Origin: a virus
DNA length: 47,946 nt
Reading direction: 5' to 3' (one strand)
Virus record (IMG/VR): IMGVR_UViG_3300033047_000026
Coordinates: 1 to 47,946 of that record
Part shown: positions 12,386 through 38,360 of the stretch, piece by piece
Numbering within the stretch: position 1 is the stretch's first letter
Layout: every line of letters begins with the position of its first letter
Position numbers and translations under genes: made by a program
The notes under the pieces: model-generated
The model's database searches: none
Told to the model about the DNA's origin: nothing
The model's input: the letters and a program-made list of their open reading frames with translations, nothing else

Positions 12386-13597
12386 TCAGAAAGACTCTAT
12401 TGCAATTTCATCTTTAGCATTTCGGACCTGAACCGAAAGCTCTATAATCTTTTCTACAAAGGACTGTTCAGCATATTTCTTAGAAATGCTTCTTGCTGCG
12501 TCGGATGCCGTCTTGAGAGCTTCTGCGTTATCGAATACCCTTTCCTTGATTTCAAGCAAAACTTGGCTAAGTCCTTCTATAGATATAACAGAATATTCTT
12601 CCTCCGAACTACCAATATAAGTCTCGTAGGGCACAAAGAACTGGTAATCTTTAGGCATTTGACGAATTATCTCAGAACTTCTACCAATGTCCATGCCGAC
12701 TGGGATGCATCCAGAAGCCATTCCCTCAAGCAATGTTAGACCTGTAGCAGATTTGACAGAGCAATCTACAACGACATGAGAAGCTAAATATTCATCATTC
12801 ATTTCTTCGTCTGTTATGCTATCTTTTACGGATACAAACTTTTCTGGAAGATTCATATTAAAAGATCCATATCTATCAATAAGTAAATCTAAATCATATT
12901 CGCCTGGATCATAAAGATTTGTATGCAGATAACCCTTGATTGTTTTTTCATCTTCAGTGAGAGAAAGCATGGAATTTATCTGCCCCATTGACTTGATGAA
13001 AGCAGAAATATTGTTAGCCTGAGCATTATGGGCAGAACAAATAACTTTCATAGGACAATCAGTCAAAGCAGTAGGCCCACCAAAGACATTATGATTAGGC
13101 CCAAAAGAGACATATTCCGCATTTACATTAGCTAGGCCTGTAACATTCGCCAAGCCAAATTCATTCACAGAAATAACCTTGTCCGCATACTCTAAAGCCG
13201 ATTTATGATTCTCATTGATATATAAGCACTCTACACAGAGAACGGCCATCCACTTGAACAAATTGGGATACATAGCCTTGACTTCCCAAATGAAGTCAGT
13301 CTCCTTGTAGTCTCCAATTGAAATAACCAAATCTGGTTGCGTCTGCTTCATTAATTCGTACAAAGCCGCTGACCCTTGAACTTGCGGTTCTATAGGAAAG
13401 ACTTGACAGACTTTCTTATTCTCGTATTCAAACCAATGAGTGCCTCCCTCTTCAGGCAAAAAGAAACCCTCATCATGATGCCATGCCGCCGTAGCGACAT
13501 TGTGCCCCTGAGAAGAAAGGCCTCGGAGGACTGAACTATTCATGCGGCCATTTCGAACCAGCAAGTAAGGAGATGCACTAATCGTTAGTATATTCAT
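12386..13597 (-). CDS. GT4-type glycosyltransferase inside the tail module (403 aa)
   Basis: Two Rossmann-like halves of a GT-B enzyme: the N-terminal 'NILTISASPYLLVRNGRMNSSVLRGLSSQGHNV' pattern with a Ser/Arg target-binding turn, and the C-terminal 'SATGLTLLEGMASGCIPVGM', which matches the GT4 donor region. The first Glu of the usual E-x7-E is replaced by Ser, so activity is uncertain. ATG 13597 is chosen because the Rossmann strand starts there. No ribosome binding site is seen; the leader TGACGATATATACAAT resembles that of the other GT4 gene. A glycosyltransferase between neck and tail-tube genes is unusual. It may modify a tail protein. Confidence 0.8.
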   Translation of the reverse strand: MNILTISASPYLLVRNGRMNSSVLRGLSSQGHNVATAAWHHDEGFFLPEEGGTHWFEYENKKVCQVFPIEPQVQGSAALYELMKQTQPDLVISIGDYKETDFIWEVKAMYPNLFKWMAVLCVECLYINENHKSALEYADKVISVNEFGLANVTGLANVNAEYVSFGPNHNVFGGPTALTDCPMKVICSAHNAQANNISAFIKSMGQINSMLSLTEDEKTIKGYLHTNLYDPGEYDLDLLIDRYGSFNMNLPEKFVSVKDSITDEEMNDEYLASHVVVDCSVKSATGLTLLEGMASGCIPVGMDIGRSSEIIRQMPKDYQFFVPYETYIGSSEEEYSVISIEGLSQVLLEIKERVFDNAEALKTASDAARSISKKYAEQSFVEKIIELSVQVRNAKDEIAIESF

Positions 13598-13610
13598 ATT
13601 GTATATATCG

Positions 13611-14660
13611 TCAAATATTAGAAACGGCGATTGCCCAGTCATTTCCTATAAGAACGGCAGTCAAAGGAACGCCGCCAAGCGAAAATCGCCTGGTCTCTAA
13701 AATGGTGCCTGTAAGTTTCTTACAAATAATATCTCCGAACTCATTCAGTGATATAGGAACGCCCTGCCAAACAGTATAATCCGATACAGAAACACTATGT
13801 TCTCCGCTAACTAGGCCACGAAGAACTCTGTGTTCGCTGTTTTCAAGGAATGAAAAACGATGACCCTGATATACTAAATTACTACCTGATAATGATAGAG
13901 GTCCATCCAGTTCTCCATTTACGTCATAGACAGCAATGGCCCTATCTCTGCTGCTATTCTCATATACAGAAAGAGGCATACCTCCTAAAACTAAATTAGA
14001 TGATGACCTCATTGTAAAACCAGAAGCAGAATCAAAAGCAAAATGCCTGATACCGCCAACAGATATAGTTCTTATTCTATTAGTACCTATCCTTGTTGGG
14101 GCGGGGGCGATTAAGTCTATAACGCCGTCTATTGAAGTCGTAGCGATAACTGGGTCTGTATAATAGACTGTCAAATCTAGACCATAATGCCTATATACAG
14201 ATGATCCGAAACCAGAGTCTCCGTCGAGGTCTGTTGTTATTCCAAAATCAGAATTCATCAACACAGCTATACCATCTACAATATCACCGTTAGAAGTAGA
14301 ACTTCCCTCAGTTACTTCAGCATTGATCCCGCCAGCCGTACTTGTATAATTCATACCAAGACTTCCGATAGAAGTTGACCCGATAACGTACCTTGAACTA
14401 ACAGTGGCGGCTCTAACAGTATCAGAGACTCTAATGAGACCATATACTATCTCTAGACCAGACAATGTTGCAAAAGGATCAAAGGAAAAACCGAAATCCG
14501 ACCACACAAGCTCGTGACTATTGGTGCTAGAAAGGGTAATATTGGAAAATGCGCCATCTCTAGATCTTGCGTTCTGAGGGTTTGCCCATGCAATAGTACC
14601 CCCATTATCGCTATTCGTTGACAACAGACTCGCAGTTTTTGTCTGGGATTGTAAAGTCAT
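13611..14660 (-). CDS. Beta-sandwich virion protein (349 aa)
   Basis: Residues 25-175 fit a recurring phage beta-sandwich recognised by 'NPQNARSRDGAFSNITL', 'HELVWSDFGFSFDPFATLSGLEIVYG' and 'VYRHYGLDLTVYY'. The C-terminal half has repeated units with a Gly-Gly-x-Pro-Leu type turn ('VLGGMPLSVYEN', 'WQGVPISLNEFG', 'SLGGVPLTAVLI'), suggesting a repetitive beta structure. No enzyme motif. It is encoded in the neck/tail group just before the second glycosyltransferase and could be a decoration of tail or neck, or that enzyme's substrate (speculation). Confidence 0.7.
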   Translation of the reverse strand: MTLQSQTKTASLLSTNSDNGGTIAWANPQNARSRDGAFSNITLSSTNSHELVWSDFGFSFDPFATLSGLEIVYGLIRVSDTVRAATVSSRYVIGSTSIGSLGMNYTSTAGGINAEVTEGSSTSNGDIVDGIAVLMNSDFGITTDLDGDSGFGSSVYRHYGLDLTVYYTDPVIATTSIDGVIDLIAPAPTRIGTNRIRTISVGGIRHFAFDSASGFTMRSSSNLVLGGMPLSVYENSSRDRAIAVYDVNGELDGPLSLSGSNLVYQGHRFSFLENSEHRVLRGLVSGEHSVSVSDYTVWQGVPISLNEFGDIICKKLTGTILETRRFSLGGVPLTAVLIGNDWAIAVSNI

Positions 14661-14672
14661 AATAATTTAATC

Positions 14673-15599
14673 TCACATTTGAGGATCAATCCAACCACCA
14701 GCTTCCTGAATCTCTGCCTCCCAAGCAAAGTAGTCAATAGTTGAAGCATGAAGCAATGAGCCTCGATGGACAAATCCGTAATTTATATCCGCAGGCCATG
14801 AGTTGTAGAAAAACCGAGTCATTGCGATTGCTCTAGGTAACTCATCTAGCGTATAGTCATTCATAAACGGAGCATAAAGCTCCAGCGTTGTCTCGTCCGT
14901 AACGCATTTAACAGCAGCTTCTTCTGAACGATGCAGGCTATCGAGAAGCAAGTGCCTGGTCTTTGTTGGATCGAAAACACTCGTATCCGCTACTTTGATA
15001 AAAGTATCTCCTGCAATAATAGGCGCTATTATCTCAGTTGAATTGAATGGGCCAACAAGGGGGTAGAAGTTATTCTTCAATCCTCTTTCTATCGTATCAG
15101 TCAGACTAAGCAATTGTCTGTAGCTTTCTTCATTAGAAGAAGACTTAACAAATGTAGATATCTGGACTTTGAAGTTTTCCTTTGTAAGCTGTAACGCTTC
15201 CCAATTTGAAGACTTGGAATTTCCCATAATAGAGATAGCTGGATATTGTGGTATTACGGCAGGATCTCCGATGTAGATACCTTCCATAAGCTTGCCGCCA
15301 TGCGTCTTTCGAACAACGGCGTTCTGAGCTACTGTCCAACCGTTGTTGACCTGAATAGGAGTAGTCAACTCTAGAGTTGTCTCGTTTACAACTTCTGCTA
15401 TTATTAGCTTGGCTTCAAATATCTGGTTTTCAAAATCTATAATAGCTAATTCATCGCCCTCGCTCCAGCGACTTGTTGTCTGCACATAGAGAGTAGTATC
15501 TCCCTTTGCGACATCCGCAGTCAATGGAGTCTGTGTATTTACCCAGCGATATATAATCCTGCGTATAGATTCGAGTAATTCAATAGTTGGCTTTTTCAT
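14673..15599 (-). CDS. Neck / tail-completion-type protein with two beta inserts (308 aa)
   Basis: The helical N-terminus ('TIELLESIRRIIYRWVNTQ') and the core ('NFKVQISTFVKSSSNEESYRQLLSLTDTIERGL') resemble tail-terminator/neck proteins. Two similar beta domains are inserted: residues 26-80 ('AKGDTTLYVQTTSRWSEGDELAIID ... ETTLELT') and 195-245 ('AGDTFIKVADTSVFDPTKTRHLLLD ... ETTLELY'). The same type of domain occurs once in the 242-aa adaptor. Position between adaptor and tube genes supports a neck or terminator role; the fold assignment is inferred. Confidence 0.6.
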   Translation of the reverse strand: MKKPTIELLESIRRIIYRWVNTQTPLTADVAKGDTTLYVQTTSRWSEGDELAIIDFENQIFEAKLIIAEVVNETTLELTTPIQVNNGWTVAQNAVVRKTHGGKLMEGIYIGDPAVIPQYPAISIMGNSKSSNWEALQLTKENFKVQISTFVKSSSNEESYRQLLSLTDTIERGLKNNFYPLVGPFNSTEIIAPIIAGDTFIKVADTSVFDPTKTRHLLLDSLHRSEEAAVKCVTDETTLELYAPFMNDYTLDELPRAIAMTRFFYNSWPADINYGFVHRGSLLHASTIDYFAWEAEIQEAGGWIDPQM

Positions 15600-15859
15600 T
15601 ATCCTCCAAACAACTTATCTATCAAATCATCCGAAAAATCATTGATCAAATTCTCTTCAACCTGACCTAACTTCTGTCCATTTAGGTCGATCTTTTCTCC
15701 CCTCATGGCCGATTCGAATTGACTACGACGAACAGCTTCCTCAGGGTTTTTGCTCAAAACAGTTTCCTGCTTAGAGATAAAAGAGCCCACATTGAACTCC
15801 GACCCCTCAATCATCTTGATTCTCTTTAGAGATTCAACAAAATCATCCCAGCCATCCAT
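15599..15859 (-). CDS. Small protein in the neck gene group (86 aa)
   Basis: No family recognised. Charged and mainly helical ('WDDFVESLKRIKMIEG', 'NPEEAVRRSQFESAMRGEKI', 'EENLINDFSDDLIDKLF'). Start and stop both overlap their neighbours by 1 base, so it is translated in series with the adaptor and the 308-aa neck protein. Probably a minor neck or completion protein. Confidence 0.75.
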   Translation of the reverse strand: MDGWDDFVESLKRIKMIEGSEFNVGSFISKQETVLSKNPEEAVRRSQFESAMRGEKIDLNGQKLGQVEENLINDFSDDLIDKLFGG

Positions 15860-16587
15860 TAGTTCTCTCCAATATCTCTACTTGAATCTTGATCTGCCTT
15901 TGTTCCTGGCAGTCTATATCTGTCACGAAGAGTTGGATTGAGGAATCTATGACCTGTTCTTCTCTGGCCATGAAGAACTGTCCTGCCATTCAGTATATTA
16001 TTCAAATCTCTTCTCGCTAGTCCTCTTAAGTGTTTGCCATATTCGCTTATGTTAGGAGAAACTTCGGCTGAGTAATACTTGTCATAAATATTCGCTGCGG
16101 CAAGTCTAGCAGAGATAAGGCTAATAGGAGCAGGATATTTTACCCGAAGAACACGAGTGTCGCTGCTATCAAAAACACCGATTACAGTGTCTTCTACTTC
16201 AATCATCGTAGTATTGACAACTAAGGATACAGTATGCCTCTCCTCTTGAGCCGTATCAACAAAGATAATTACATCTCCGGGAACAAGATTAGACGCCTTT
16301 GATATTTGAATATCCATGTTATAGTCATTGATATCGAAAATAAGTCTTGTCTCTAGATCTGATTTCTCACAGAGAGGTACAGCATACATTTCACTCAAAG
16401 CTCCATCTACTTCTTCATCTGACCACATTATGAATTGATTTATAACGCTAAAAGACAAAGCATTTGGATTCGCAACCTGTCCGATACTATTCAACGGCAA
16501 AGCTTCTCCGTTAACAACCGTATTGGTCGCTGACGTGAGCGATTGGCCTAAAATATCCAATACTTGCTGTTGATTTGCATACCCCAT
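15859..16587 (-). CDS. Head-tail connector / adaptor-like protein (242 aa)
   Basis: The N-terminal helices ('ANQQQVLDILGQ', 'VINQFIMWSDEEVDGALSEMY') and the later 'APISLISARLAAANIYDKYYS' helix fit head-tail adaptors of the Mu gp36/DUF1320 type, which sit under the portal. A beta domain is inserted at residues about 88-145 ('LVPGDVIIFVDTAQEERHTVSLVVN'), like the beta domains of the 308-aa protein two genes downstream. The C-terminus is basic and Arg-rich. It begins 5 bases after the actin-like gene, and its stop overlaps the next start by 1 base. Confidence 0.65.
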   Translation of the reverse strand: MGYANQQQVLDILGQSLTSATNTVVNGEALPLNSIGQVANPNALSFSVINQFIMWSDEEVDGALSEMYAVPLCEKSDLETRLIFDINDYNMDIQISKASNLVPGDVIIFVDTAQEERHTVSLVVNTTMIEVEDTVIGVFDSSDTRVLRVKYPAPISLISARLAAANIYDKYYSAEVSPNISEYGKHLRGLARRDLNNILNGRTVLHGQRRTGHRFLNPTLRDRYRLPGTKADQDSSRDIGEN

Positions 16588-16592
16588 TTACA

Positions 16593-17630
16593 TCACTCCT
16601 GTTTCGCTGCCTTTTTCTGAGCAACCATAGCGGCGGCATAAAGGCCCTCTACTACCGCTGTTCTCGGATTTGCTGCTGCTCTAATTACATTTATCTCAAA
16701 AGGCAGCTTCAGACCTCTGATAACCTTATCAACTTTATCAGTAAAACCATTCGGCATAGATGTTCCACCAGCCACGACAACATCCAGTGGAGCATTGAAG
16801 TGACTCTTCTCAGAAGCGAATTTTTTACCGAACAATGTAAAGACGTGCCTGATAAGTTGGTCATAGTACGCATCAAGAGCAAATTGAACATCATCCTCGA
16901 AATCGATATTGTTGAAGTCTAGTTTCTTTTCTTTGATAGTAATAACTTGAGACAGTGGAACGCCTGTTTGCTCAGAAACCTGTTGGTCAACCCAGTCTCC
17001 GCTACGAGCAACGCTCATGCCTATCACAGGCAACCCCCGATACGCCAGGACGCAGTTTGCTCGCCCAGCACCGAAGCTGACGCCGATACCACTGTATGCA
17101 ATCTCCTGCCCATCCTCGACGACCACAGGCCGCTCTGAGAGGATAACAGCATGACCTTCTTCAATGATCTTGACATTCCATCCAAGTCTCTTGAATAGTG
17201 CTTCTAGTCTCTGCCTATGAAAGACATTATTCGCCGAGTCGTCTACTGACTCAGAAGATACGCAAGTGCATACCCAGGAGTTATCTCCTTCTGCACGACC
17301 TACGGCTTGTTCAATAATCTCGGCAAGAACTAGAAGTTTTTTGTCTTCATTCTTATTGAGGACTCCATCCTGTAAGGGACGGCGAATTTCTGTCTTGCCT
17401 GGAAAGATATTTGCAACCTGTATTGCATCGTCTCCAATAACGTAGTATCCATCGCCATCCTTGACATATTGCCAACCATTGCGAGTAAGAATATCATCCG
17501 AATCTTCGGAGCTAGGAAGCTCAACAAAGGCATTACGGACTGTCTTGAAGCTCAATCCTTCTGAGTCTAATTTTTCCGCGACTTGAAAAAACATAGTTCC
17601 AACGTCACAACCAATGGCTCTATCACCCAT
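16593..17630 (-). CDS. Actin-like ATPase (ParM/MreB-type, 345 aa)
   Basis: Resembles bacterial and phage actin-fold ATPases. Phosphate-1 is 'CDVGTMFFQVA' (Asp9, Gly11), the phosphate-2 region is 'GVSFGAGRANCV' (183-194), and the adenosine motif is 'VVVAGGTSMPNGF' (284-296). The normal Asp of phosphate-2 appears to be Ser185, so nucleotide hydrolysis may be altered. A helical segment (250-275) precedes the adenosine motif. Filament formation, for moving DNA or placing the phage in the cell, is a reasonable family-based guess. Its ribosome binding site lies inside the preceding homing endonuclease gene. A neck-protein gene starts 5 bases downstream, so it sits within the virion operon. Confidence 0.85.
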   Translation of the reverse strand: MGDRAIGCDVGTMFFQVAEKLDSEGLSFKTVRNAFVELPSSEDSDDILTRNGWQYVKDGDGYYVIGDDAIQVANIFPGKTEIRRPLQDGVLNKNEDKKLLVLAEIIEQAVGRAEGDNSWVCTCVSSESVDDSANNVFHRQRLEALFKRLGWNVKIIEEGHAVILSERPVVVEDGQEIAYSGIGVSFGAGRANCVLAYRGLPVIGMSVARSGDWVDQQVSEQTGVPLSQVITIKEKKLDFNNIDFEDDVQFALDAYYDQLIRHVFTLFGKKFASEKSHFNAPLDVVVAGGTSMPNGFTDKVDKVIRGLKLPFEINVIRAAANPRTAVVEGLYAAAMVAQKKAAKQE

Positions 17631-18345
17631 GACAAATCTCCTCTTTTGATATATAAGTCAGTTCTCTGACCTTGTTATTTCTTCTATATTCGTTAATGCT
17701 AGCCAAAGGTCTATCAACGTAGCTTTTCTTCAAATATTCTTCATCCGTATATTGCCCAAATTCAAACTTGTAATCGTAATCCGATACTGGATTTTTACCA
17801 TCCAAAATATTTGCTAATGAAACCATTGCGTCACGACCAATAGCGATTTTGCGACCTTCCCGATATATTGATGAATCCCCAAGTTTGTCTTTCAGTTTTT
17901 CAACCAAGAAATCTTGATCTTCATCGACAAAACTATCTGTAGATAATATAACTCGTCTATAGTTGGGTCTAGATTTTTTCCTACACAAATGACCATCTCC
18001 AATATACCACCAAATAATACATTCATCAGTAAGCTCAAGATCTCTAGGAACTATCTTTTTACCATCAGGATACCATCTTTTGAATTGAGCAGTAATAAAA
18101 TCACTAACTCGACTACGCAGTCTATATCCATAATATGTTTTACCTGTTCTTAAATCATTTGTTACTTTTTTAGATATTCCAGACCAAGGTATTGATGGTA
18201 GGTTTTCCCTACTCGCTTCTGCGAAGGATAGAAACTTACAAGTCAAACCCATTCGAGCAGAAACACCACTAGAAGACAAATATGCATCTGACAGCATCAA
18301 TCCATCAAATACCCCCATGTCGACGCCACAAACTCTATCACTCAT
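17623..18345 (-). CDS. LAGLIDADG homing endonuclease with an actin-like N-terminal tail (240 aa)
   Basis: Two LAGLIDADG motifs are visible: 'DGLMLSDA' (residues 14-21) and 'IIWWYIGDG' (residues 110-118), about 95 residues apart, each keeping the acidic residue. The arrangement fits the LAGLIDADG_2 group of site-specific DNA endonucleases that spread themselves into uncut alleles. Residues 1-11 (MSDRVCGVDMG) correspond to the first 11 residues of the next gene (MGDRAIGCDVG), including the Asp-x-Gly nucleotide-binding motif. The gene has a TAAGGAG ribosome binding site, and its last codons carry the GAGGAG ribosome binding site of the actin-like gene, overlapping its start by 8 bases. This looks like an element inserted at the start of that gene. 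Confidence 0.9.
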   Translation of the reverse strand: MSDRVCGVDMGVFDGLMLSDAYLSSSGVSARMGLTCKFLSFAEASRENLPSIPWSGISKKVTNDLRTGKTYYGYRLRSRVSDFITAQFKRWYPDGKKIVPRDLELTDECIIWWYIGDGHLCRKKSRPNYRRVILSTDSFVDEDQDFLVEKLKDKLGDSSIYREGRKIAIGRDAMVSLANILDGKNPVSDYDYKFEFGQYTDEEYLKKSYVDRPLASINEYRRNNKVRELTYISKEEICHG

Positions 18346-18355
18346 CTATCGCTCC

Positions 18356-18940
18356 TTACAGCAATCCTTCAAGTTCATCAATGTTCCTATCTACATTAGA
18401 ATGACCTTTGGACTCTTGTTGTTTTATCTGTCCTGAAGAACCCTTAGTTAATCTATCTATAGTTCTACTGTGTATATCGACAGCCATATCATTAGGCAAT
18501 TCCTCAGGAGCCACATAGTCATCTTTCGTATTTGCCGTAGTTTTTCCTCCACTCATACCCTGTAGCGCCTTTATCGCTTCTTGTAAGGCGTCTACTGCAT
18601 CGGGAGAAAGTTGTTGAGGCGTGGCTTCTGCTTTTTGAACCTGAGCATTTACTCTTTCCACAATACGTTTTTCCATCTCTTGCATTTGCTTGAGAACGGT
18701 TTCGTTATCTTGCTCCTGAATAATAATCGGAGCTTCAGTCAGACTTGAAGGGCGAGAAGGGTCATCCTTTTTTATAACCTTTAGTGCGCCTCGCTTGATG
18801 GCGATATGAAGATCTTTGGATTCATCTACACGATATCGAGGACCGAGCCTATCGAGGTCTTCAACTTTGCCTGGTCTAATCTCTGCTCTGAGATCAGATA
18901 TTACAATAGAATGACATGTCATATTCTTGACTATATACAT
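18356..18940 (-). CDS. Coiled-coil protein with shared N-terminal module (194 aa)
   Basis: Residues 1-58 ('NMTCHSIVISDLRAEIRPGKVEDLD ... LHIAIKRGALKVIK') form a small beta-alpha module. Similar segments occur at the N-terminus of the GT4 glycosyltransferase (38.2 kb) and inside the 219-aa protein (36.5 kb). Residues 75-110 are a Gln/Glu-rich coiled coil. The C-terminal part is polar and probably disordered. ATG 18940 is chosen for its GAGGAAG ribosome binding site and because the module begins there; a longer frame to 19003 would overlap the zinc-ribbon gene. A virion-binding or scaffold-like role for the module is inferred. Confidence 0.75.
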   Translation of the reverse strand: MYIVKNMTCHSIVISDLRAEIRPGKVEDLDRLGPRYRVDESKDLHIAIKRGALKVIKKDDPSRPSSLTEAPIIIQEQDNETVLKQMQEMEKRIVERVNAQVQKAEATPQQLSPDAVDALQEAIKALQGMSGGKTTANTKDDYVAPEELPNDMAVDIHSRTIDRLTKGSSGQIKQQESKGHSNVDRNIDELEGLL

Positions 18941-18950
18941 TGTTTCTTCC

Positions 18951-19124
18951 TCATCGTCTTGTACGAGTGCGAGGCAATGAGGGTGGAGGAGAAGAAAGGA
19001 CAATAGAGTTCATCTCTTTACAGTCAGGACAATACCAAAATATCTTGCCCTCTCGAAAGTTTATCTCTATTGCAGGTTCATGCTCATGATGTCCACATTC
19101 CTTGCATACACAAGTTACATTCAT
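18951..19124 (-). CDS. Small zinc-ribbon protein (57 aa)
   Basis: A short gene coupled to its neighbours. Its ATG overlaps the stop of the 870-aa gene (ATGA), and its stop lies 10 bases before the 194-aa gene. Cys7-x2-Cys10 and Cys32-x2-Cys35 form a zinc-ribbon pattern, with Cys5 and a HHEHE cluster nearby. The C-terminus is Pro/Arg-rich. Such proteins bind zinc and often nucleic acid or protein, but no exact role can be read. The conserved spacing of four Cys and the tight coupling support a real gene. Confidence 0.8.
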   Translation of the reverse strand: MNVTCVCKECGHHEHEPAIEINFREGKIFWYCPDCKEMNSIVLSSPPPSLPRTRTRR

Positions 19125-21733
19125 GCTATTCTCTCAATCTCCCGAAGAATAGCTCTTGCCTCAGACTGTATATCAGTAATCTGGGCATCTATGATATCTG
19201 TAGAAGCAAATTTGCTCATGCTCTGCTTGAGCGCATGAAGGCTATCAAGACGAGAGACTGCTGTCTTGATAACGAAGTAAATAGCCTCTGCTCTCTTGCC
19301 CTTGCGATTTGCAATGCCAAAATCTTTCTTTCTACGAGCGTTCCATTCTTTGCGCTGTTCTGCGTTAGATGGAGTACCCATAGTATATTCTTCTGGCAAA
19401 CTCATAATATTTGCAACAGAGTTCCACATAGGCATGGGAACTTGCTTGTAGTCTTCTTTTTTGATCCTAGCAATACGCTCCTTTAGTGCGCTGTAAGCTA
19501 TTTCATCAGGAATAAACTCAACATGAGATGTCTCAATGGGAGCGCCTACGGGCTTTATACCTTGTCGTTCAAGGTATTGATTCAATATATTTTCGCTTTC
19601 GGGAGAAAGCAATTGATTCTGCACGCTGTCTGTAAGGAGTTCCTTACGAGCGCTCTCTCCAACTTCTCCAGAATAAACAGCGTACCGTGAGAAGTCGGAA
19701 ACTCCTGTGAAAGCTTTTGTTGTATTAAGGAATGCTAAAATAACATTCTTGGGATAATTCTGGAATGCCTCATCAATCAAAAAGTCGCCAAGCTCTGTAG
19801 CAATCATTTGAGCCGCAGAAGCAACAAGAGATTGAGAATTCTTGCCATCATCCAACGTTTCCCAATCACGACCTCTCCATCCAGTAAGTCCCGGAATTAT
19901 ATTACGATAACTATTTGCGTCTTCTTCTGAACCTTGAAGCTTACCAGATTGCAATTCTTTCATTCTCCTCAAAGCCAAGGCAGGTGGGACTACGCTTTGC
20001 CAACCAATAGCTGACCAATTGTTAATTGCTTCTGGAGAATAACGAAGATTACCTAATGATCTATTCTTATTAACCTCTTCCATTTGTTCAGGAGTTATGT
20101 CCTCTGGAAGCTTCCTAGGCGATCGAGTAATCTTCTTACCTTGAGTAAGATTTTCAATCTCTTCATCCGTAAGCTGGCCTGAGTCAGCCAAATTTTTCCA
20201 ACCCATCATAGCTTCTGCTCCAAGCTCCCCAAGAGCATCGATAGTTAGCGCAGCATAAAAGGGAGAGTTAGTAACGGATTTGCCGTTCTTGCCTTGGATC
20301 ATCTCTTCTCGACCAAACTTGTTAAACAAGAAATCACGAGCATCTTTTGCTAATCCATGAATCTGTGTAGCCATGGAACTAAAATCTCCAAACAAAGCGC
20401 TCATATATTCCTGTTGCTTTTCCTCAGACATACGGGCAGCATCAGCCTTCTGTGGTTTAGCCGCAATTTGCGAAGCTAGACCGCCAGTATCCTCTCCTTC
20501 TTGATCGCCTTCTTTATGCTCGGTCTTGGTTCGCCTCATTGTTTTGGAGCGAAGCTTGCGACCAATAAAGTCCCAAAGAGCCTCTTCTGCTCGAACCTTG
20601 AGGTCGCCGTCCTCTTCGCCTAACTCATTAAACATAGGAATATTAGGATCGGCTATTTCAAGAATTCTCTCACTCAACTCATCAATATGCGTATTGTAGA
20701 GTTCTCTATAGTTGTCCCATATTTCTGGATTTGCATGAGAATCGTCTTCTGCCATCCACTGCTGAACTTCTGGTGGAGCAAACTCAGAACCCCCTTCAAG
20801 GAAGAATCTGATTCGGAAGTCTTTCTCTCCTCGCTCGCCTACGCCGCCATCGACTCCTTTGAATACATATTCAGATAAGTCCAGAGGCCATGCGTCGATC
20901 AGTTCACTAAACCGACCGTCGCCCGAAAGCATTTCCATTCTATCTGGACGGTCTTGAATCATGTTCTTAAAGACAGCGGTTGCTAGTTCTGTTGGAGGAA
21001 TACCACGAAGCTTAGACATCTCTTCTTGCTTCATCAATTCTTCTCTTGCTGAAAGATCGGCAATATAGCTTACTTCACGAGCCTTTGCCATATCAAGATA
21101 AGCGGCTAGGTTTTCAGGGACTTGTGTAATCTCACTAGGAAGAGACTCTCCTGGATCGTGACTATCGAAGAACGCAACCATCTGTTCCTGCTCCATAGGA
21201 GCAACAATTTCGGGCTCTTGCATCATTTCTGCGTTTCCTGGATTAACTACTGTAGGAGCAGTTTGTTGGCCGGCAGCCTCATCTGTTAGCTCCTTTAGGG
21301 CTTGTCCCAAGAGAGGTAGCCAGTGGTCATCTTCCATCCATTCTGCTGGAAAACTTGATTGAAAATCAGGATCGGTCTCATATGAGTCGAGAACATCTAC
21401 AAATGACATACTACCTGGAGAAAAATGCGGCCTCAAGCCGTCCTTCATAGCAGGAAGTACAGAATTGTATACCATTGCGCTATAACCTAAATAACCCTGC
21501 TCCTGAACAAAGCCTCCGTCTTTATTGTTATCACGCAAACGGCGAAGTTCTTCCTTTCTCGAACGATTTCTCGTATAAGTAGGCTTAGGAACAACGGGTT
21601 CAGGTATATTACTTACAGGCGGAACCTGTACTGGCATTGGCTCAACATTAGGCTGTACAATCGGTTCATCATACATATCCGCGATGATTTGTCTGCGGGT
21701 AGCCCTTGTCAATAGGTTGCGGAAAAAGTTCAT
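19121..21733 (-). CDS. Large unknown helical protein (870 aa)
   Basis: Not recognised. The N-terminus has a basic amphipathic helix ('FFRNLLTRATRRQII'), then a proline-rich stretch (residues 25-55). The body is acidic and mostly helical with aromatic patches, and its C-terminus is a helical bundle ('DSLHALKQSMSKFAS ... IQSEARAILREIERI'). No enzyme motif, transmembrane segment or repeat is apparent. A GGAGAGG ribosome binding site precedes ATG 21733, and its stop overlaps the zinc-ribbon start (ATGA). Position between PhoH and the neck genes would suit an internal head, ejected or vertex protein (inference). Confidence 0.75.
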   Translation of the reverse strand: MNFFRNLLTRATRRQIIADMYDEPIVQPNVEPMPVQVPPVSNIPEPVVPKPTYTRNRSRKEELRRLRDNNKDGGFVQEQGYLGYSAMVYNSVLPAMKDGLRPHFSPGSMSFVDVLDSYETDPDFQSSFPAEWMEDDHWLPLLGQALKELTDEAAGQQTAPTVVNPGNAEMMQEPEIVAPMEQEQMVAFFDSHDPGESLPSEITQVPENLAAYLDMAKAREVSYIADLSAREELMKQEEMSKLRGIPPTELATAVFKNMIQDRPDRMEMLSGDGRFSELIDAWPLDLSEYVFKGVDGGVGERGEKDFRIRFFLEGGSEFAPPEVQQWMAEDDSHANPEIWDNYRELYNTHIDELSERILEIADPNIPMFNELGEEDGDLKVRAEEALWDFIGRKLRSKTMRRTKTEHKEGDQEGEDTGGLASQIAAKPQKADAARMSEEKQQEYMSALFGDFSSMATQIHGLAKDARDFLFNKFGREEMIQGKNGKSVTNSPFYAALTIDALGELGAEAMMGWKNLADSGQLTDEEIENLTQGKKITRSPRKLPEDITPEQMEEVNKNRSLGNLRYSPEAINNWSAIGWQSVVPPALALRRMKELQSGKLQGSEEDANSYRNIIPGLTGWRGRDWETLDDGKNSQSLVASAAQMIATELGDFLIDEAFQNYPKNVILAFLNTTKAFTGVSDFSRYAVYSGEVGESARKELLTDSVQNQLLSPESENILNQYLERQGIKPVGAPIETSHVEFIPDEIAYSALKERIARIKKEDYKQVPMPMWNSVANIMSLPEEYTMGTPSNAEQRKEWNARRKKDFGIANRKGKRAEAIYFVIKTAVSRLDSLHALKQSMSKFASTDIIDAQITDIQSEARAILREIERIA

Positions 21734-36131: not shown

Positions 36132-36791
36132 TTACTCGCCATCATCTAGAGAAACACCAGACTGTCTTATGTTATCCATAGTCTCCGAATCCATATCTCT
36201 ACCGCTATCAAGGTCTCTTTGAGTTATATCAAGGCTCATAATACCGTCATCCCCTTCTTCTCCGCTACTAATTTTGTCGAGTCGATTCTGCCAACCGTCC
36301 TGTATGATGAGCTTGTCCAACTCTTGCTCTCGACTTGAAATAGGTTTATTGGATCTGTTATTATATTCTTCTTTTATTCTTCCTATTTCTGTTTCATCGA
36401 TAATTTCAATCTTGCCTTTTCTTATAAGGTATTCAAGATCTGGGAATAAAACTTTAGGATCTCCAGCAAAGGAATGAACTGGTTTGCAGTCAATTGGATT
36501 TTCAAACACAATATCCTCGTCTTGGCCTTTGAGTATGAGCTTGCCCTTTGCTGTTGATCTTAGATATAGAACTCCAGTAGGCTCGACCGATTCAAAGCTC
36601 AAGCCTGTTACACTAGAAAGTAAATCAAGAACAGCATTGCCATCTACGACTTCCGCTTCTGTAACATAATAGACTTTTCGTCCTGCTATTTCTTTTGCTA
36701 TGGCTTCCATGCTGTCTATGGGCATAACTTTCATGCCATCCTTTTGAGCAACAGTTACCTGCCCTTTTTCTGAATCAATTAAAACAATCAT
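36132..36791 (-). CDS. Unknown protein between two glycosyltransferases (219 aa)
   Basis: No known family. Start ATG 36791 overlaps the glycosyltransferase stop by four bases (ATGA), so the pair is coupled. Residues 1-65 alternate short strands and helices. Around residues 90-140 ('GKLILKG ... LEYLIRKGKIEIIDE') a segment resembles the 57-residue module at the N-terminus of the upstream glycosyltransferase and of the 194-aa coiled-coil protein encoded at 18.4-18.9 kb. The last 70 residues are acidic and polar and look disordered. The gene is followed after 3 bases by the GT9-like gene. A virion-associated partner of the glycosylation cluster is possible but not shown. Confidence 0.8.
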   Translation of the reverse strand: MIVLIDSEKGQVTVAQKDGMKVMPIDSMEAIAKEIAGRKVYYVTEAEVVDGNAVLDLLSSVTGLSFESVEPTGVLYLRSTAKGKLILKGQDEDIVFENPIDCKPVHSFAGDPKVLFPDLEYLIRKGKIEIIDETEIGRIKEEYNNRSNKPISSREQELDKLIIQDGWQNRLDKISSGEEGDDGIMSLDITQRDLDSGRDMDSETMDNIRQSGVSLDDGE

Positions 36792-38194
36792 GCCTTCTCC
36801 TTTGCTTTGTCCCAAAGATATCTAATTCTCTCTTCAAATCTATCGGCAGAAGTAGAGAAAGAGTATTCGCTCATTAGGAGGTCTTGTAGCTTCTTGTTTT
36901 TATTGACTGACTCTTCTTCATGCATATAAACGTATCTCATTGTCTTTTTTAGTCTGTTGATAAAGTCATCAGACTTTAGGTTGGGCATTAGTTGCCCATC
37001 CCAATAGTGAACATGACTCGAACCTACAGGAACAGGCTGTAGGGAATCTATGTCTACCAAGTACGAATTATCTTCTTTCAAAAACATAGTATGACCGCTA
37101 TGATTTGTAGCAATAACTGGTAGTCCGCATAAGGACGCCTCTGCATAAGGTAGACCAAAACCTTCCCCACGAGAGGGTAAAACAAACGCATTGCATGCGC
37201 TGTACACCCTTGGTAATTCATACTCAGGAATAACCCTGGAGCATCGGGCAATATGTGGAGGATTATCGCCACCATACAGCTCAATAAACTTATCTATTTC
37301 CTTCTTTATAACATCAGCGCGCTTGGTGGAATGCTGATATCTACTAACAATCAAAAGCGAAACGTCATCATCGCCTGTAAACTCTTGTAGATATGCTTTC
37401 AATAAGGCATCATAACCCTTGCGATATGCCCATCCGAATAAGCTACAAAATACAAAAGACTTCATCGCTGGTCGGAACTCGTGGGGTTCATGAGTTTCGT
37501 TATATAATTTGGTCTGTATTGGATTTGGCATAACAATAACAGGTCTAGCAACTCCATGCTTCTCTAGAATTTCCGCACAAAAATCAGATGTAACCCAAAT
37601 CTCATCATACTGATTACATATATCTATTGTTTGCTGAGGAACGGATGCTGCTTCTACCGTTGTATAGAGTATTCGATAGGTTCTGCGGGGACTTATTCTT
37701 GAAAAACTTGGAATAATACTATCAATCCTTATCGCATTTTTTCCTACCTTCTTACTAAACTGAGATAGCTGCCTAGCTTCTAGTTCGTTGAGATCGCTTT
37801 TTCTAACAGTAGTAATATCCGTTTCTACACTTATGTTCCTACTGGCCAGCGCATATGCAAGATTTCGATTTGTCTTAGCATATCCACCTGCTTCGTAAAA
37901 GTGACCAGTAATTATGACTTCTGGATTTGATCCACTATCCATTCTTGTCTCCTCGTCGTTTATTTCTTCATCGCCTTGTTGCTTATGCTTAGATTGCAGG
38001 TAGGCTAAATTTTTCTCTATACGATCATTTGAATGTTCTACCACATCGAATGCGCCTAAGGCAACTAAGTTTTGAAAGGCTATGCTCTTTTTTACATCTT
38101 GCAAATCAATATGCATAACATCATCCGAATGAGGGATGTTCATGTCGATATCTTCGATGTAAACAGAGTTTCCGGTTGTATTGATGAACTTCAT
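36788..38194 (-). CDS. GT4-family glycosyltransferase with an N-terminal phage module (468 aa)
   Basis: Residues about 93-468 are a GT-B glycosyltransferase of family GT4, which transfers a sugar from a nucleotide-sugar donor. There is an N-terminal Gly-rich acceptor-side motif (GGYAKTNRNLAYAL), the linker strand 'VIVMPNPIQ', and the donor-site E-x7-E in EGFGLPYAE (Glu344, Glu352) followed by CGLPVIATNHSG. Residues 1-57 are an added module ('NSVYIEDI ... LVALGAFDVVE') resembling parts of two other proteins of this window, joined by a charged linker. I chose ATG 38194 because the module begins there; a longer frame from 38263 would run through the terminator and T-arm. No ribosome binding site is visible. 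Its stop overlaps the next start (ATGA), so the two are translated together. Acceptor unknown: virion protein, host glycan or modified DNA base. Confidence 0.85.
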   Translation of the reverse strand: MKFINTTGNSVYIEDIDMNIPHSDDVMHIDLQDVKKSIAFQNLVALGAFDVVEHSNDRIEKNLAYLQSKHKQQGDEEINDEETRMDSGSNPEVIITGHFYEAGGYAKTNRNLAYALASRNISVETDITTVRKSDLNELEARQLSQFSKKVGKNAIRIDSIIPSFSRISPRRTYRILYTTVEAASVPQQTIDICNQYDEIWVTSDFCAEILEKHGVARPVIVMPNPIQTKLYNETHEPHEFRPAMKSFVFCSLFGWAYRKGYDALLKAYLQEFTGDDDVSLLIVSRYQHSTKRADVIKKEIDKFIELYGGDNPPHIARCSRVIPEYELPRVYSACNAFVLPSRGEGFGLPYAEASLCGLPVIATNHSGHTMFLKEDNSYLVDIDSLQPVPVGSSHVHYWDGQLMPNLKSDDFINRLKKTMRYVYMHEEESVNKNKKLQDLLMSEYSFSTSADRFEERIRYLWDKAKEKA

Positions 38195-38216
38195 ATATAC
38201 TGTATCGACACAATTG

Positions 38217-38241
38217 AAAAAAGACCCGCAGAGCGAGCCTT
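38217..38241 (-). terminator. Rho-independent terminator after the tRNA-like RNA
   Basis: On the minus strand AAGGCTCGC pairs with GCGGGTCTT (9 pairs, two of them G-U) around a TCT loop, and the stem runs into a T tract (six Ts including the stem end). It lies 11 bases after the tRNA-like unit and 22 bases before the glycosyltransferase start, so it would separate an upstream non-coding transcript from that gene. Confidence 0.7.
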
Positions 38242-38252
38242 CCTTCTTCAAG

Positions 38253-38360
38253 ACACGGACCAAGGAATCGAACCTTGTCCAAAATCGTTTTTGGTTATCC
38301 CAGCAATAGCCCGCATACTCGCCGTCGTTTAGGACGGCGATGCCTGTTCCCAGGCGGGTT
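38253..38360 (-). ncRNA. Candidate structured RNA with a compact tRNA-like cloverleaf
   Basis: On the minus strand: a GCCTG/CAGGC hairpin (38342-38355), a 7-bp CGCCGTC/GACGGCG hairpin (38320-38339), then a 63-base cloverleaf-like unit (38253-38315). The unit has a 7-bp acceptor-like stem TGCGGGC/GTCCGTG with three G-U pairs, a 3-bp arm with a GG-containing loop, a 5-6-bp arm CCAAAA/TTTTGG, and a textbook T-arm: CAAGG, loop TTCGATT, CCTTG, with the conserved T-T-C-R-A pattern and closing G-C pair. It is not a standard tRNA: the middle loop has 6 bases, no T33, almost no variable loop, and no CCA. An alternative 7-bp pairing of 38308-38314 with 38354-38360 would disrupt the first hairpin and part of the acceptor-like stem. 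A terminator follows directly. A decayed tRNA or a tRNA mimic are both possible. Confidence 0.4.

Follow-up and report, generated by a model that had tools for sequence, protein, structure and literature searches.

Apparent exchange of translation starts between a free-standing LAGLIDADG endonuclease gene and a phage actin gene

Directly upstream of an actin gene in an uncultured phage from IMG/VR lies an endonuclease gene whose first codons read like the start of that same actin, which raises the question of whether a free-standing homing gene can settle inside a coding sequence, take over the start of its host gene and still leave that gene whole. The locus lies in a stretch of 47,946 nt (the window, meaning the whole of the DNA analysed here), which is contained in a 49.8 kb virus record. 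All features discussed below are on the minus strand, in the order gene X (18356–18940), endonuclease (17623–18345) and actin (16593–17630); the sequence-only reading that drew attention to the locus had the sequence and coordinates right, and both the endonuclease and the actin ORFs are confirmed. The endonuclease ORF runs from an ATG at 18345 to a TGA ending at 17623, and the actin ORF from an ATG at 17630 to 16593. The two overlap by 8 nt, with the endonuclease stop codon falling within the first codons of actin; since their starts are 715 nt apart, they are read in different frames and encode two proteins.

The product of the ORF at 17623–18345 is an I-SceI-type (PF03161) LAGLIDADG endonuclease with two motifs. 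It matches PF03161 over residues 12 to 169 (E=4.7e-13; 49.9 bits against a cut-off of 25) and phrog_11023 (E=1.9e-19), and both LAGLIDADG motif acids are retained, Asp20 and Asp117 being invariant in the alignment of relatives. The structure model, built on six relatives (pLDDT 84.9), adopts a two-repeat LAGLIDADG fold with the two alpha-beta-beta-alpha-beta-beta-alpha repeats of the I-SceI type and a poorly modelled C-terminal tail. Its top Foldseek matches are I-SceI and I-WcaI (TM 0.65–0.72), and I-SceI is also matched at the sequence level (E=0.007). The window endonuclease shares with these enzymes the single-chain two-motif fold and both motif Asp residues; however, I-SceI is intron-encoded, whereas the window endonuclease is not in an intron and has an apparently borrowed N-terminus and an extra C-terminal tail.

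The downstream gene (16593–17630) is intact and encodes a volactin-family actin of 345 aa (PF25216: E=4.6e-66; 223.9 bits against a cut-off of 35), with relatives in IMG/VR that are 52–84% identical; from bacterial genomes, the actin relatives recovered were all distant. Volactin-family actins are encoded by a large group of uncultured phages, with contigs of up to 548 kb. The closest solved sequence relatives of the window actin (5ljv and 5jyg) are labelled just as actin-like ATPases, and NCBIfam returns a weak MamK match for it. Elsewhere in the window, 12386–13642 and 36788–38263 encode two glycosyltransferases, both assigned to phrog_2170.

The first 11 residues of the endonuclease, MSDRVCGVDMG (18313–18345), stand directly before the first LAGLIDADG motif, VFDGLMLSDAYL, at which the endonuclease proper begins (17623–18312). 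The alignment of these residues with the actin start, proposed from the sequence alone, holds up against controls. On an actin-start profile built from 23 distinct IMG/VR loci, window excluded, the segment scores 22.2–22.4 bits, residues 3–11 (DRVCGVDMG) giving 22.2 bits; true actins range from 17.1 to 27.3 bits, and the window's own actin scores 24.3. No non-actin 9-mer among ~93,500 matches this score, and none does in a larger control set of 122,112. The junction may lie anywhere from codon 9 to codon 11, so that Met10 and Gly11 could be the endonuclease's own; for this reason the control was also run with both residues omitted, and again 0 of 123,064 9-mers score as high. GVDMG occurs exactly in the actin of a relative (L034), and the start of another actin (L040) closely resembles the M-S-R-x-C pattern seen in the endonuclease. 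The segment is likewise absent from the endonuclease family consensus: the PF03161 match starts just past it, Bacillus phage relatives such as phiNIT1 begin MSFKEIMDGLLLGDG, and the N-termini of other LAGLIDADG relatives are unrelated to it. Judged by these comparisons, MSDRVCGVDMG is a displaced actin start and not a feature of the endonuclease family.

The segment also occupies the position of a native actin start. Gene X, to which no function has been assigned and for which Pfam and PHROG gave no convincing match, lies directly 5' of actin in 18 of the 23 relatives (blastp against the upstream ORFs of the 23 loci) and marks that position in the window. The gene X stop codon shares nucleotides with an AAGGAG Shine-Dalgarno site (18352–18357) that now belongs to the endonuclease, and relatives without an insert (hereafter empty) have a Shine-Dalgarno site at the equivalent place. 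The native actin start and its ribosome-binding site are now used by the endonuclease, in agreement with the earlier proposal that a homing gene had taken its host gene's translation signal. The proposal that the target gene was rebuilt complete fares equally well: the 11-codon replacement start, MGDRAIGCDVG (17598–17630, up to the junction Gly11/Thr12), scores as a normal actin start and continues into the conserved TMFFQ. The rebuilt start is preceded by GAGGAG (17638–17643), 7 nt before the actin ATG, which is formed by the Glu-Glu codons of the endonuclease's terminal Lys-Glu-Glu-Ile-Cys-His-Gly-stop (KEEICHG-stop), as had been noticed. The insertion point needs correction: it had been placed in the start codon region, and it is indeed near the actin 5' end, but ~9–11 codons inside the gene and not at the start codon. 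At this conserved junction, ATGTTTTTTCA or one-base variants of it are found in all relatives (23/23).

At the DNA level, the window's two start copies match well over the first 13 nt alone (ATGrGTGATAGAG, 12/13), and to that extent the proposed match of first codons stands; beyond it, leader plus start agree at 31/53 positions, which is not distinctive, as 10 of 374 ORF starts (own start included) score as well. L001 is one of the two relatives that stand closest to the window; against its empty actin allele, the endonuclease leader plus start agrees at 36/50 positions and beats every other ORF start (374 tested). Relatives lacking the endonuclease do have gene X, a Shine-Dalgarno site and an actin start of the same kind, as predicted, but the predicted resemblance of their leader is not significant on its own. 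Because the window leader alone does no better than any Shine-Dalgarno leader (P ~0.2), the case for a displaced start rests on the coding match and its position and not on the leader. When the window is compared with L001, the displaced copy scores 14.5 and the replacement copy 16.5; when a second carrier, L004, is compared with its empty relative L011, the corresponding scores are 12.0 and 14.0. Displaced and replacement copies are about equally close to the empty relatives, and lineage-specific residues are common to both copies within each genome. The second start is a diverged copy, not a perfect repeat.

L004 (IMGVR 3300033067_002502) encodes an endonuclease 50% identical to that of the window in the same slot before actin, with a KEEINHG-stop tail, a GAGGAG before actin and an overlap as in the window. 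The L004 endonuclease begins MANSRAV, the L004 actin MANSRVLGVDLG and the actin of the empty relative L011 MGKSRAVSVDVG. On the actin-start profile, the L004 endonuclease start is the runner-up at 9.8 bits (the next scores 4.4), and none of the 374 ORF-start controls matches the actin start of L011, or that of L004 itself, as well as its leader plus start does. This copy of the actin start is partial, and ~30 further residues of other origin lie between the actin-like start and the first motif; within them, TEEEIKDVEQQL is similar to part of a portal-like protein, and they possibly trace an earlier insertion site. The region L004:4169–4300 comprises an AVAVAVAV run together with these partly portal-like residues. 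The endonuclease tail KEEI(C/N)HG may itself have arisen by reading through an actin leader that the element captured. Aligned with the L011 actin leader, the L004 version of this tail is identical at 14/18 positions, above all 90 control leaders, and the window version is not significant. In L043 (L011), the actin and gene X frames are interrupted by apparent frameshifts, which are probably assembly errors.

The two carriers fall in separate, well-supported clades, each with empty sisters, a distribution that fits either separate gains or one gain followed by at least four losses. They are the only two full cases found in IMG/VR: a search with the window endonuclease alone gave no further case, a two-sequence endonuclease profile recovered L004 and one distant protein, and a DNA pattern of the conserved actin junction recovered the same contigs and no new one. 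Both cases are old, their endonucleases being 50% identical.

We consider it probable (about 0.8) that a free-standing LAGLIDADG homing endonuclease gene was inserted in the actin gene, took the native start and supplied a replacement. The displaced start and its position, the replacement start, the second phage with the same arrangement and the empty relatives can all be read from the sequences themselves; the observation made earlier is confirmed and its interpretation supported, neither of the two refuting outcomes named with it having been borne out. On this account, the insertion lies 27–33 nt inside the actin gene, in the DNA for the conserved nucleotide-binding Asp-x-Gly-Thr, beside the Gly-Thr codons. 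The native start (Shine-Dalgarno site, ATG and ~9–11 codons) remained with gene X and became the endonuclease start, and the element itself provides a Shine-Dalgarno site in its last codons and, beyond it, a full but diverged version of the actin start that is read in another frame. The outcome is an actin gene that is still whole and an endonuclease that depends on actin's old translation signal. By analogy with its family, the enzyme presumably cuts empty actin alleles near codons 11–12, at the conserved GGnACnATGTTTTTTCA site; in the window, the predicted homing-site region is rebuilt at the actin junction, beside Gly11-Thr12 (17575–17614). Repair from an endonuclease-bearing copy would spread the cassette, and differences in the replacement start may protect the carrier from cutting. 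Because the rebuilt actin restores a site-like sequence, immunity would have to come from those differences or from weak binding. Both genes are probably expressed, since their frames are intact and their Shine-Dalgarno sites good, and translation of actin could begin through termination-reinitiation or at the gene's own site. Several points weigh against this account: the full cases number two and are old, the replacement start (~30 nt) is too short to trace to a donor, the leader by itself shows no significant similarity to those of relatives, and the L004 copy is partial.

Among rival accounts, duplication in place deserves a hearing, although we regard it as unlikely. It holds that the actin start was copied locally, or that illegitimate repair captured the endonuclease between two copies, in place of cassette homing; the residues shared by the copies within each lineage, M(S/G)DR in the window and MANSR in L004, speak for it, as does the failure to find a recent donor. 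However, two phages with empty sisters share the endonuclease and its GAGGAG tail at one and the same position, as a mobile cassette would lead one to expect, and the displaced and replacement copies have diverged considerably. A group I or other self-splicing intron would make the endonuclease an in-frame continuation of exon 1 (MSDRVCGVDMG), with exon 2 starting at Thr12 and the second start intronic. Mitochondria offer many intron ORFs that continue an upstream exon, and here, as with introns, the junction falls in a conserved coding site. Against this stand the almost complete lack of non-coding sequence, the endonuclease ORF filling the insert up to the second start, and the second start itself: an intron would have no use for a full actin start equipped with a Shine-Dalgarno site. 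The group I intron was rejected, since no intron RNA core was found in 15500–20000 (no Rfam match at E<=1), and we hold an intron of any self-splicing kind to be highly improbable.

An intein in actin would explain the LAGLIDADG domain and the Thr at +1 after the insert, and inteins do occur in portal-like genes of these phages. Yet a stop codon closes the endonuclease frame, which is not the frame of actin, the insert ends have neither an N-terminal Cys/Ser nor a C-terminal His-Asn, and Pfam finds no Hint domain; with frame and junction residues wrong, the intein was rejected, and its probability is close to nil. There remains an ordinary insertion between gene X and actin, in which the actin-like residues arose by chance or by start-codon context bias. 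The free-standing homing endonucleases of T4-like phages (Seg, Mob) are indeed intergenic (PMC2988022), starts of the M-S/A type are common and the leader alone is not distinctive. The absence of any equally high score among ~122,000 9-mers, with or without Met10-Gly11, weighs against chance; moreover, the match is to the neighbouring actin, at the right position, and L004 shows it again. Ordinary intergenic insertion with a chance resemblance is strongly disfavoured.

The nearest precedents come from fungal mitochondria, where mobile ORFs carry a duplicate of one end of the gene they occupy, as described in Allomyces macrogynus atp6 and in Glomus atp6, atp9, cox2 and nad3 (PMC3630166). As with these LAGLIDADG or GIY-YIG ORFs, the endonuclease sits within its target gene, carries a diverged replacement and adjoins the native part, so that the endonuclease gene lies between native and replacement copies of one target-gene part. 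The fungal elements replace the 3' end (C-terminus), whereas the window element replaces the N-terminus, in a mirror-image layout; unlike in the fungal cases, the displaced 5' end appears to be reused as the endonuclease start, the element supplies a ribosome-binding site, and the setting is a phage. Mitochondrial introns of Tremella fuciformis with N-terminal duplication (PMC7315562) are likewise mobile elements with a duplicated host-gene part beside the insertion and partial gene replacement, but they are introns of ~2 kb in mitochondrial genes, whereas the insert here shows no sign of an intron and has very little non-coding sequence. With Seg and Mob of T4-like phages, the window endonuclease shares the phage setting, free-standing form, patchy distribution and a conserved neighbour gene; those genes are intergenic and have their own start signals, whereas here the insertion lies within coding sequence and start signals seem to have been exchanged. 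The ShiLan element (PMC11855218), in which an HNH endonuclease lies out of frame within a phage methylase gene, also entered a phage coding sequence with neither intron nor intein, but there the host frame stays open through the insert, whereas here a replacement 5' end provides the host gene with a new start. A limited search of the open-access literature gave no phage example of a replaced 5' end.

Free-standing homing genes are thought to be confined to intergenic sites because they lack splicing with which to mend a broken gene. A recent preprint describes free-standing genes as generally limited to such sites (PMC13405050). The sequences indicate that, by exchange of the 5' end, a conserved coding site can be entered without splicing, and since both the empty allele (L001) and the replacement allele are defined, cleavage and immunity can be tested directly. 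A practical warning is that gene callers will attach a fragment of another protein to such endonucleases and may put the target gene's start in the wrong place. More tentatively, at somewhat less than even odds, a phage homing cassette may spread by exchanged translation starts, cutting its host gene at a conserved codon not far from the 5' end, taking the host start and delivering a recoded, cut-resistant one, so that a free-standing endonuclease persists in coding sequence without splicing; portal-like residues in the L004 endonuclease and in a 65-aa ORF of L027 would then be traces of an earlier host gene or decayed copies.

The slot between gene X and actin is an insertion hot spot. In L027, it holds the 65-aa ORF just mentioned (L027:3305–3499), whose residues 8–35 show clear similarity to an internal stretch of the portal-like protein present in most of these phages and whose end (GKEISHV) overlaps the actin ATG, with an AAGGAG, as the endonuclease tail does. 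This ORF (FFDG, then KTGKEISH) may be what a deletion left of an endonuclease gene; compared with the joined ends of the L004 endonuclease, it scores 57 against a shuffled mean of 22, but the signal is mostly the shared portal-like segment. In L028 (L028:2172–3098), an HNH endonuclease (PF01844) lies between gene X and actin, and in L028 and L031 (L031:2654–3502), the slot contains several small ORFs to which no function has been assigned.

Portal-like genes of two related phages carry intein-like insertions (L071:1829–5131 and L070:544–4539); one lies at EWYGA/SGK in G004, and at least one mini-intein-like insert lies at DFY/STF in G015. No close relationship links the endonuclease to the portal intein found in the L004 phage. 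The very large relatives G010 and G013 (L052, L053, L056–L058) encode several further LAGLIDADG endonucleases, some of them with long N-terminal repeat regions.
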